Shown in pieces: positions 42,001 to 51,000 of a DNA stretch of 64,000 nucleotides; positions within the stretch are counted from its first letter, which is position 1, and every line of letters starts with the position of its first letter. The notes beneath the pieces are model-generated. The model saw only the letters and a list, made by a program, of their open reading frames with translations, had not been told where the DNA came from and did no database searches. This DNA comes from Argopecten irradians (lineage: Eukaryota > Mollusca > Bivalvia > Pectinida > Pectinidae): the NCBI RefSeq assembly GCF_041381155.1, contig NC_091135.1, positions 49,736,086 to 49,800,085 of the forward strand, given 5' to 3'. A program made the position numbers and the translations under genes.

Positions 42001-45000
42001 TGTGCCAAACATAACCTAAGACACATTAGTTGTGCCAAACATAACCTAAGACACATTAGTTGTGCCAAACATTACCTAAGACACATGAGTTGTGCCAAAC
42101 ATTACCTAAGACACATTAGTTGTGCCAAACATAACTAAGACACATAGTTGTGCACAAACATTACCTAAGACACATAGTTTGTGCCAAACATTACCTAAGA
42201 CACATTAGTTGTGCCAAACATTACCTAAGACACATTAGTTGTGCCAAACATTACCTAAGACACATTAGTTGTGCCAAACATTACCTAAGACACATAAGTT
42301 GTGCCAAACATTACCTAAGACACATTAGTTGTGCCTAACACATCAGTTGTGCCAAACATAACCTAAGACACATTAGTTGTGCCAAACATAACCTAAGACA
42401 CATCAGTTGTGCCAAACATTACCTAAGACACATTAGTTGTGCCAAACATTACCTAAGACACATAAGTTGTGCCAAACATTACCTAAGACACATTAGTTGT
42501 GCCAAACATAACCTAAGACACATTAGTTGTGCCAAACATAATCTAAGACACATCAGTTGTGCCAAACATTACCTAAGACACATTAGTTGTGCCAAACATT
42601 ACCTAAGACACATAAGTTGTGCCAAACATTACCTAAGACACATTAGTTGTGCCAAACATTACCTAAGACACATTAGTTGATTACTTGTGCATTTTGATGT
42701 TGAATCACATTATTATTTGTAAGCTTTTAAAGTCATCTTTCTACTATTTTAGGTGTGGGAGTTAACAGCAAACAAAGTGATCATGGTGTCTGCTATCGGT
42801 AACGACGGGCCGCTGTATGGGTATGTTATTATATTCTTCTCTATAGATTTCCATTCTAGTTTTAAAAGAAAACATGTATGTTGTTTCAAGTTAGTCTTTG
42901 TGTATTAAGAAAAAGTTTCATTTCATGTCTTAAAATAATCTTAAACTTAGAACATGGTCTTTTATGTCAATATGTACTTGTATCTTCAATTCCAGATGTC
43001 ATTTCAGTGTCAAATCATATCACAAACCATGCCCTGGTCATATTATATTACATGTTGTGACACATACAAAGTGTTACATTCAATATGGTAAATCCACATG
43101 ATAACCTGCAAATTGTATGGTAATAGTCTAAATAGATGTGTCATTAATGCTTTAGACATTTGCTATCTTAATCTTAATGATAAACAATACTTAAAGGGAC
43201 AATCCACTCAGTGTTATTATTTTACATAACCAAGAAGCAAAATATGACATGAATGTATTGTTCTACATTTCTTATGAAACATATAACAAAAAATACTGAC
43301 AAATTCCACGTCATTGTTTAGTATTTTAATTGATACCGTTGTAATAACAAATCGTTGATCAATAAGATTAAGCAGGTACAATATGTATGCTGTACCCATA
43401 TCCGAGCCAAAGTCACACACGTTAAATAAATGAACTACATAACCACTGTGGAGGTGATAAAATGATTTTTTAGGCAAGACAATTCATCTAATAAGGTAAA
43501 CACACTACTGTCAGAGCGATTTGAGCAGTTCTAGACAAAAGTAACATTACTCTACGAGCAGGGGACAGGGTTCGGCATACAAGATGTTCAACCACATTGT
43601 GTAATGGCGTACAGCGAGCGAGTTTGAACATTTCTCCCACATTTCACCACCATGGCTTTTCTGGCATATCACAGTAAAAGCCAACTGATCTAATTTCCAT
43701 TAGAACTGGGTTTTTTTTCCGATATATGTACAAATGTTAATGTACTCTTAGACTGAATTGTCCCTTTAATTAGGGGGATCGTTGTCCTTTGTTCAGTGAG
43801 ATAAACATAATTTATGTTATACAGTACTCTGAACAGAGATAATTTATGTTATACAGTACTCTGAACAGAGAAAATCTATGTTATACAGTACTCTGAACAG
43901 AGAAAATCTATGTTATACAGTACTCTGAACAGAGAAAATCTATGTTATACAGTACTCTGAACAGAGAAAATCTATGTTATACAGTACTCTGAACAGAGAA
44001 AATCTATGTTATACAGTACTCTGAACAGAGATAATCTATGTTATACAGTACTCTGAACAGAGATAATCTATGTTATACAGTACTCTGAACAGAGATAATC
44101 TATGTTATACAGTACTCTGAACAGAGATAATCTATGTTATACAGTACTCTGAACAGAGATAATCTATGTTATACAGTACCCTGAACAGAGATAATCTATG
44201 TTATACAGTACTCTGAACAGAGAAAATCTATGTTATACAGTACTCTGAACAGAGATAATCTATGTTATACAGTACTCTGAACAGAGAAAATCTATGTTAT
44301 ACAGTACTCTGAACAGAGATAATCTATGTTATACAGTACTCTGAACAGAGATAATCTATGTTATACAGTACCCTGAACAGAGATAATCTATGTTATACAG
44401 TACTCTGAACAGAGATAATCTATGTTATACAGTACCCTGAACAGAGAAAATCTATGTTATACAGTACTCTGAACAGAGATAATCTATGTTATACAGTACT
44501 CTGAACAGAGATAATCTATGTTATACAGTACCCTGAACAGAGATAATCTATGTTATACAGTACTCTGAACAGAGAAAATCTATGTTATACAGTACTCTGA
44601 ACAGAGATAATCTATGTTATACAGTACTCTGAACAGAGATAATCTATGTTATACAGTACTCTGAACAGAGATAATCTATGTTATACAGTACTCTGAACAG
44701 AGAAAATCTATGTTATACAGTACTCTGAACAGAGAAAATCTATGTTATACAGTACTCTGAACAGAGATAATCTATGTTATACAGTACTCTGAACAGAGAT
44801 AATCTGAACAGAGAATATATGTTATACAGTACTCTGAACAGAGATAATCTATGTTATACAGTACTCTGAACAGAGATAATCTATGTTATACAGTACTCTG
44901 AACAGAGATAATCTATGTTATACAGTACTCTGAACAGAGATAATCTATGTTATACAGTACTCTGAACAGAGATAATCTATGTTATACAGTACTCTGAACA

Positions 45001-48000: not shown

Positions 48001-51000
48001 GTACCCTGAACAGAGATAATCTATGTTATACAGTACTCTGAACAGAGAAAATCTATGTTATACAGTACTCTGAACAGAGATAATCTATGTTATACAGTAC
48101 TCTGAACAGAGAAAACCTATGTTATACAGTACTCTGAACAGAGATAATCTATGTTATACAGTACTCTGAACAGAAATAATCTATGTTATACAGTACTCTG
48201 AACAGAGAAAATCTATGTTATACAGTGCTATGAACAGAGATAATCTATGTTATACAGTACTCTGAACAGAGAAAATCTATGTTATACAGTACTCTGAACA
48301 GAGATAATCTATGTTATACAGTACTATGAACAGAGAAAATCTATGTTATACAGTACTCTGAACAGAGATAATCTATGTTATACAGTACTCTGAACAGAGA
48401 TAATCTATGTTATACAGTACTATGAACAGAGAAAATCTATGTTATACAGTACTCTGAACAGAGATAATCTATGTTATACAGTACTATGAACAGAGAAAAT
48501 CTATGTTATACAGTACTCTGAACAGAGAAAATCTATGTTATACAGTACTATGAACAGAGAAAATCTATGTTATACAGTACTCTGAACAGAGAAAATCTAT
48601 GTTATACAGTACTCTGAACAGAGATAATCTATGTTATACAGTACTCTGAACAGAGAAAATCTATGTTATACAGTACTCTGAACAGAGATAATCTATGTTA
48701 TACAGTACTCTGAACAGAGATAATCTATGTTATACAGTACTCTGAACAACCCGGCAGACCAGATGGATGTGATCGGGGTGGGAGGTATCAACTTTGAAAA
48801 CCAGATCGCCAGATTTTCTTCTCGAGGAATGACAACATGGGTGAGCATGGGTCTAGTGGACATAAATGTAAAGAGCAAGCAATGTAAAAGGATAGTACAA
48901 AAAATGTCATAGGCAAGCTGTAATTGCTGAAGTGATATCTCTGTTTTTATGCTACATAGGAAGTTGAGAACTGCGGGTAGTTATGACGAAGCCATCACAG
49001 ATGAGAAATTACTTTGGTTTATAGCTGCTGTCAGATGTTGTGTTTCAGTGAAACAGTATCGTATAGGATGTCAGACTGACTTTTGACTTGATTGTCTTTA
49101 TTGTTAATTTTAATTGATTTTGGTTTTCCTCCACCATCAATACTCGACTCATCTTTAACCATCATGTTAATAGGACATGGAATATCATAAAAGAAATTAA
49201 AGAAAAATTTGAAAGTTTTTGCTAAAGTGATTTGTAAACTTCCTTGTTTGATATACATCCTGTAGCATTGTGTTATTCTGTACTAGGAACTGCCCCAGGG
49301 TTATGGACGTGTGAAGCCAGATATTGTCACGTACGGATCTGCTGTACGTGGATCTGCACTTAAGTGAGTAATTTTTCCCTTGGCTGTTATAAAACAAATC
49401 TTAACTTCGTCACATAATAACCTCATCAGATTTAACTATAGAAAACCATTTTACAGGTACTGACGCTTTACAGAAAACAGAATAACAAATTTGTTCAAGG
49501 TTTTGAAATAATTATAATATGTGGCAATGCTATATTGATGGTACTGACAAACTAAAAAACCGTGTTTGTAACTCTTATATTTTTCTGCTCTATTTGAAGG
49601 AATGGCTGTCGATCACTCTCAGGGACGAGTGTCGCCTCTCCTGTAGTGGTAGGAGCTATAACACTGCTGTACAGGTAAGCTTTCTAATCAGATAGCCTTC
49701 TTATATTGTGGAGTGTCCCCGATAAACAAAGGTATCAGTTATGCTTACTGATTTTGAAATTCTTTTAGTGTCATTATGAAAGCTTATGGATTTCTTCTAA
49801 TTTGTATCATGTTTACAAAACAGTTTTAAATCCTTAGTTTTCAACTTTTGATGAAACTTTGTTTGAAATAAAAATTGCCACATAGAAAGAGTGTTTGCTT
49901 TAAGGTTTCTTACCATGTTACTTACACAAGATAATCAATAATCATTGTGGTGATTGTTTTATTTTTGGAACAAAAATAATAGTAGCTAGTTTTGATGATA
50001 AAGTCTTACTAAGCTTGTGGCTAAATTTTAATAGAGGGCAAAATTTCAATTTGATCAATGTCATCATTGTAAAGCCATTGCTTGATTTTAATGACAAAAT
50101 AAACACATTATGAGGAGGATGTATACTCCTCTATATGAAATCTTTTTTTTTGCTGTAAATATCAGCCCCTCGATTGTACCATTGATTCACTGTTTTCGAC
50201 AGTGCTGTACTGGACAGAGCTCATGTAATCAACCCAGCAAGTATGAAACAAGCCTTGATGGCCTCTGCCAGACGTCTCCCTGATGTGAACATGTTTGAAC
50301 AAGGACATGGCAAACTAGACCTTATCAAGGCTTACCAAACTCTACGCACGTATAAACCACAGGCCAGGTAGGTAGTGATGTGATCAGGTACTGAATTTCA
50401 CGACCCAAGTAAATTGACGAAAGTTTATCTCTGTGAATTAACATTTTCATGATATTTGTTCAATACATCACTGCAAATATTATCAAAAAAGCTAACCATG
50501 AATAGTTTTATTTCTAAAATAATTTAACTCCAAACCACGAGAGAAAGTACCCAAATATTTCATGATGTACTGTATTTGTCTTCATGTTACAACAATATTT
50601 GTCTCAGGAGATACTTTCTTCTGGTTCATTAATGACTTGAAGCAAAACTTCTAGCAAAATAGTAAGATATTTATATCCATTCGATTCAGTTATATTTTTG
50701 GCATACTAATTTGTATTTCTCATAACACTTGCTTTTATCTAGCAACACTTTTAAAACGTTGTAACATTTCTGTTGACAGTTTGAGCCCAAGCTACATCGA
50801 CCTGACCGAGTGCCCCTACATGTGGCCATACTGCTCCCAGCCTCTGTTCTATGGACAGATGCCCGTTATTATCAATGTGAGTCATATACTAGTTTTCTGT
50901 TTTTAGCCCACCATCATCAGATGGTGGGCTATTCAAATCGCCTTTCGTCCGTGGTCCGTCGTCCGTCCGTCCTTCCGTCCGTCCGTTAACAATTCTTGTT

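Follow-up and report, generated by a model that had tools for sequence, protein, structure and literature searches.

Tandem arrays of copied 3' and 5' splice sites in one S1P (MBTPS1) gene of Argopecten irradians

The S1P (MBTPS1) gene in the analysed window, a 64,000-nucleotide stretch of the Argopecten irradians genome, carries two tandem arrays of copied splice sites, one of 154 acceptor units (array 1) and one of 30 donor units (array 2). It is very probable that array 1 is a minisatellite of the type called a "mirage" that grew from a real 3' splice site, that array 2 arose likewise from a 5' splice site, and that splicing favours the copy on the exon side. The working site in both arrays is the copy touching the exon, and the remaining copies amount to 182 decoys in a single gene (153 acceptors and 29 donors). 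Array 2, located 7 kb downstream of array 1, did not figure in the original prediction, which had described the acceptor array.

The gene and its two arrays

The predicted identity of the gene as S1P was borne out by the joined product, of which the first 783 residues aligned over 781 residues with 8uwc, an S1P chain (E 0, 1399 bits). Exons were placed by tblastn with a human S1P query (matches at 37190-63992, + strand), and their borders were set by GT/AG and phase. Exons 3-26 join in one open frame with no stop, and one exon between 37783 and 39318, where the phases clash, is probably missing from the model. The exons flanking array 1 are the eighth and ninth of the 26 mapped in a model that lacks 5' exons, so the numbers 10 and 11 of the original prediction are provisional, and exon lengths in this gene range from 44 to 193 nt. 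The RNA searches yielded no Rfam match at gathering scores and no tRNA by ARAGORN. Upstream of S1P, an uninterrupted 518-aa open reading frame (ORF) at 8942-10498 (- strand) encodes a cytochrome P450 (PF00067, E 2.9e-113), and an ORF at 19428-20396 (+ strand) carries a tyrosinase domain (PF00264, E 8.9e-22); the 807-aa ORF at 28039-30462 (- strand) had no Pfam match at E 0.001, in a scan that covered five of the 13 listed ORFs.

Table 1. Coordinates of the S1P gene, its two arrays and the adjoining features in the window
Feature	Position	Strand	Remark
S1P (MBTPS1) gene, 26 exons mapped	37191-63990	+	5' exons and 3' end incomplete
Upstream exon, 68 nt	42753-42820	+	23 residues given as its reading
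Intron containing array 1, 5917 nt	42821-48737	+	
Left flank and first unit, likely old intron end	43787-43838	+	putative ancestral sequence
Array 1, 154 tandem 32-bp units	43807-48748	+	153 decoy acceptors, real one last
Real downstream exon, 103 nt	48738-48840	+	S1P coding, (G)...TTW; opens with the 11 nt that the repeat unit takes from the exon
Exon next to array 2, 193 nt	55610-55802	+	ends in the 19 nt that array 2 takes from the exon
Array 2, 30 tandem copies of exon end and 5' splice site	55784-56883	+	first is the real donor, 29 decoys

Each unit of array 1 joins 21 nt of the 3' end of the intron (...ATACAG) to the first 11 nt of the exon, and this division, already proposed, agrees with the mapped exon start at 48738, from which TACTCTGAACA runs on into ACCCGG and the human S1P match holds from the first whole codon. 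The ATACAG acceptor cores number 154, with the next base lying from 43825 to 48738, which is near the "about 155 copies" put forward earlier. Successive cores are spaced by exactly 32 nt in 146 of 153 cases, the other spacings being 29, 31 (twice), 33, 35, 37, and 45, and because all fall within 29-45 nt, every whole unit has an acceptor. Tandem Repeats Finder returned rows of period 64 and 96 spanning the whole array and rows of period 32 over 43807-44805 and 44803-48748. The modal unit, GAGATAATCTATGTTATACAG/TACTCTGAACA (the slash marking the exon border), has the same sequence as the real, last unit; 63 of the 153 decoy units equal the real one over all 32 bases, and pairwise identity averages 96.6% among the 147 in-register units, the seven units following an indel being excluded. 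The original description of the units stands for an array of near-identical copies, except that the first unit deviates (AACATAATTTATG...). A 29-mer of the unit, at three mismatches or fewer, matched at 150 positions in the window (GC 35.8%), all within array 1, compared with a mean of 0.00 in 100 shuffles. A single exact-pattern scan for the unit in viral contigs likewise gave no match, a result with little bearing on animals.

The unit of array 2, TCTATGATGAAAATACAAG/GTATGTAGCTTGCTCGAC, combines the final 19 coding bases of the adjoining exon with that exon's donor. The donor reads AAG/GTATGT, with variants, the GT is kept in 30 of 30 units, and the copies are spaced by 35-38 nt, once by 48. 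At the exon end, the stretch VKFYDENTR is identical to human. The sequence TCTAT is common to the exon side and the right flank of the array; short direct repeats of this sort have been proposed to seed minisatellites.

The window holds further tandem repeats. About 29 copies of a 30-bp repeat at 41820-42679 stop 73 bases short of the exon that starts at 42753; in most of these units a TAG, CAG, GAG, or AAG forms the end before TTGTGCC, and the repeat has no exon-edge match. About 85 copies of a 29-bp repeat at 59329-61793, within the S1P intron 58910-62266, likewise match no exon edge. Another S1P intron contains 8.4 copies of a 155-bp repeat (50996-52285), and an array of a 145-bp unit with GAAGGTCAAGGTCATTC-like words occupies 25204-26367.

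Decoy joins and the choice of the working site

When the upstream exon was joined in turn to every acceptor of array 1, 153 of the 154 joins ran into a stop, in keeping with the original prediction that internal joins terminate, that each internal unit is a decoy acceptor unable to give protease, and that only the last does so. The two commonest decoy readings, each shown over 13 residues, were those foreseen (68 and 50 acceptors), but the stop position varies, falling after 6 to 36 residues. From the start of the array to the exon border there are 459 AGs, and the exon is open only via the one at 48738; only the last unit runs on into conserved coding sequence. When the donors of array 2 were joined to the next exon at 57484, the frame was open with the first copy only. 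The array 1 junction lies upstream of the GTSVASP motif of the S1P protein, which contains the catalytic serine, and a product spliced to a decoy would therefore be without GTSVASP. Decoy mRNAs, if made, would be expected to decay, given the many downstream exons.

Predicted site strength does not tell the real sites from the decoys. With rough matrices derived from this gene's own sites (about 25), the real acceptor of array 1 ranks 18th of the 26 acceptors of the gene (leave one out); when the matrices were built from the gene's other sites, the score of the real acceptor was equalled or exceeded by 79 of 153 decoys and that of the real donor by 24 of 29. In 144 of 154 units, among them the real one, 16 bases free of AG precede the acceptor; at the gene's 25 other acceptors this stretch measures 3 to 98 bases. 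The branch site was rejected as the selector: a T at -17, which completes a UNAY-like branch motif, is present in 82 of 154 units, including the real unit and its nearest neighbour. RNA structure was also rejected, three folds of the array or its end giving z scores of -1.96, -1.04, and 0.35; the first unit with its left flank gave -0.31, and since the real unit and the decoys have the same upstream neighbour sequence, RNA structure is unlikely to separate the real unit. Columns -12 to +1 carry no substitution among the 147 in-register units (the seven post-indel units dropped). We draw no conclusion about selection on the AG from this pattern, as ATACAG is fixed by the way units were picked, independent changes are few, and indels do hit -12 to -7.

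Because nothing found upstream singles out the real acceptor, we propose that splicing most likely picks the exon-proximal copy by exon definition, relying on the exon body and the donor after 48840, as no other copy has a genuine exon immediately beyond it. Use of the nearest decoys would lengthen the exon to 135 and 167 nt, sizes inside the range of this gene, so exon length alone leaves them possible as sites and some leakage is likely; such leakage would be expected to be cleared by nonsense-mediated decay.

A different reading, raised as speculation in the original prediction and regarded here as improbable, gives the decoys a regulatory role: they would compete for the splicing machinery, and array length would set the amount of productive S1P mRNA. 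The material for such competition is at hand, all 153 decoys being nonproductive and 79 of them scoring no lower than the real site. The available text on the human ABCA7 intron 18 VNTR, where repeat length is associated with reduced expression and with skipping of exon 19, indicates that a long intronic repeat can act so (PMC6660495); it resembles array 1 as a kilobase-scale intronic tandem repeat beside an exon with its length tied to splicing, but that text does not present it as composed of splice sites. Intron retention can likewise result from decoy exons and cryptic sites, according to the portion consulted of PMC8706089, where nonproductive sites compete with real ones. Decoy exons as described there have both an acceptor and a donor, whereas array 1 offers acceptors only: its six commonest GT contexts score -3.69 to -1.27, compared with 2.73-11.84 for the gene's 25 donors. 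As both kinds of site are required and no such context exceeds -1.27, we rejected the decoy exon class for array 1. Against a regulatory role, the published mirages are thought harmless to splicing; in the parts of these reports available, RT-PCR, together with data on Adh3, suggests that the amphioxus mirages leave regular splicing undisturbed (PMC3087553, PMC3902484). Moreover, the AG is kept in the decoys closest to the exon, where selection might have removed it if these sites were costly, although homogenisation could mask such an effect. We are equally doubtful of the extended version, in which the 153 decoy acceptors and 29 decoy donors would trap transcripts, and unequal exchange would vary the trapped share between individuals and rewrite the real splice site and the first exon codons.

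Source and growth of the arrays

The exon parts of both arrays encode S1P residues identical to human, TLN in array 1 and FYDENTR in array 2, and the chances that a random 11-mer or 19-mer would encode these residues are 4.6e-5 and 9.3e-10, before registers are counted. This coding argues that the exon is the source in both arrays, and the earlier claim to that effect for array 1 gains from a second array that was likewise built from a splice site, in that case a 5' one. It is hard to reconcile with an unrelated satellite that landed in the intron and had its last unit taken over as the exon border, an explanation that we consider very unlikely: the gene is indeed rich in other tandem arrays lacking an exon-edge match, but the exon bases of array 1 are conserved coding sequence, array 2 does likewise at a donor, and the 29-mer is confined to array 1 within the window.

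Under the mirage reading, array 1 would have begun as a tandem duplication of the real 3' splice site at one S1P exon and would have grown to 154 copies by slippage and unequal exchange of blocks, and array 2 would have formed likewise from a 5' splice site. A run of 13 variant units in array 1 recurs 44 units away, whereas no run in 42 shuffles was longer than 9; by this comparison block growth, seen here as duplication within the array of one haplotype, is better supported than the points bearing on an origin at the first unit. Near-identical 32-bp units are difficult to assemble, but the ordered variants, the block duplication, the distinct indel units along array 1, and a window containing no N anywhere make it highly improbable that the length or order of a real array is an assembly artefact.

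Read from GAG, the first unit is GAGATAAACATAATTTATGTTATACAG/TACTCTGAACA, 6 bases longer than the standard unit. The suggestion that a loss of 6 bases between two ATAA copies would turn it into a standard unit leads us to see in the left flank the likely end of the old intron, and the intron end without the array is tentatively predicted to have been close to TTGTTCAGTGAGATAAACATAATTTATGTTATACAG/TACTCTGAACAACCCGG. A 10-nt imperfect inverted repeat links the left flank to the exon start (CTTTGTTCAG and CTGAACAGAG, 90% complementary). As DNA, this 60-nt stretch outdid its shuffles in folding by only a modest margin (z -1.64 on one strand and -1.06 on the other), and three units (46114-46209) taken as single-stranded DNA folded better than shuffles (z -3.29, with 2 of 200 shuffles as good); such single-stranded folding may help slippage and has no bearing on splicing.

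When exon edges were compared with the window, self-matches dropped, tandem copies occurred at 2 of 51 edges, those of arrays 1 and 2; two other edges each had one 15-base match, on the opposite strand and far off. A seed unit dropped at random into the gene, once the arrays are collapsed, would cross an exon edge at 5.7-7.5% of tolerated positions. At edge rates of 5.5-10%, the probability of at least two splice-edge arrays is 0.017-0.052 for four arrays (of at least 10 copies), 0.027-0.081 if five are counted, 0.039-0.114 if six are, and 0.16-0.38 for the full set of 13 loci, in a crude placement model whose answer depends on the tolerated exon overlap and the number of arrays counted (4, 5, 6, or 13), both chosen by the analyst. 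Two such arrays thus exceed what chance placement easily yields when four are counted, and less so at the larger counts; the data are compatible with growth that takes no account of splicing and neither show nor exclude a bias toward splice edges. Growth was probably blind to splicing, and the arrays would survive since the exon-touching copy stays intact.

Relation to known mirages and significance

Minisatellite-like duplications of 3' and 5' exon boundaries have been described in the amphioxus globin genes BflGb6 and BflGb9 and called mirages, a name that goes back to earlier work on Adh3, whose mirage was reported to be somatically unstable; the units of BflGb6 measure 150-160 bp and number 3 in one haplotype and 6 in another (PMC3087553, as far as its text was available). 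The accessible part of PMC3902484 adds the lancelet PGBD5 and troponin C, the PGBD5 case being imperfect and having 2 to 7 units by assembly. The S1P arrays share the sequence features of these mirages: the tandem unit spans an exon-intron boundary in both, its exonic part is authentic coding sequence of the same gene with the real copy at the array edge, and splice dinucleotides are kept in many copies (154 acceptors and 30 of 30 GT). The kind of repeat is therefore already known; what is new is the size, 154 and 30 units against the 3 and 6 of BflGb6 and the 2 to 7 of PGBD5 in the portions of those reports seen, and the presence of both ends in one gene, perhaps together with another phylum. 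Among the matches listed, judged on titles and the starts of abstracts, we recognised no mirage-type repeat outside amphioxus in print, molluscs included; PMC7931591, considered as a molluscan case, appeared unrelated from the part available.

Tandem duplication can also lead to intron gain, as in the Rogers model and the potato RdRp case (PMC4974935, from the text at hand), and the likeness is that duplicated splice signals can serve as new ones. In S1P, by contrast, there is no new intron; array 1 ends one intron and leaves the coding frame unchanged. We rejected this class, as array 1 does not supply both ends of a new intron.

Array 1 of S1P offers a clean natural test of splice-site choice. 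As the real acceptor has its upstream sequence and the first 11 exon bases in common with many decoys, the selector should lie deeper in the exon or at the donor, and junction reads would show how far the choice follows exon definition as opposed to the first AG after the branch site. The arrays suggest that mirage-type repeats can reach a very large size and that two of them can sit in one conserved gene, and the turnover of such arrays could write into coding sequence at the exon edge.
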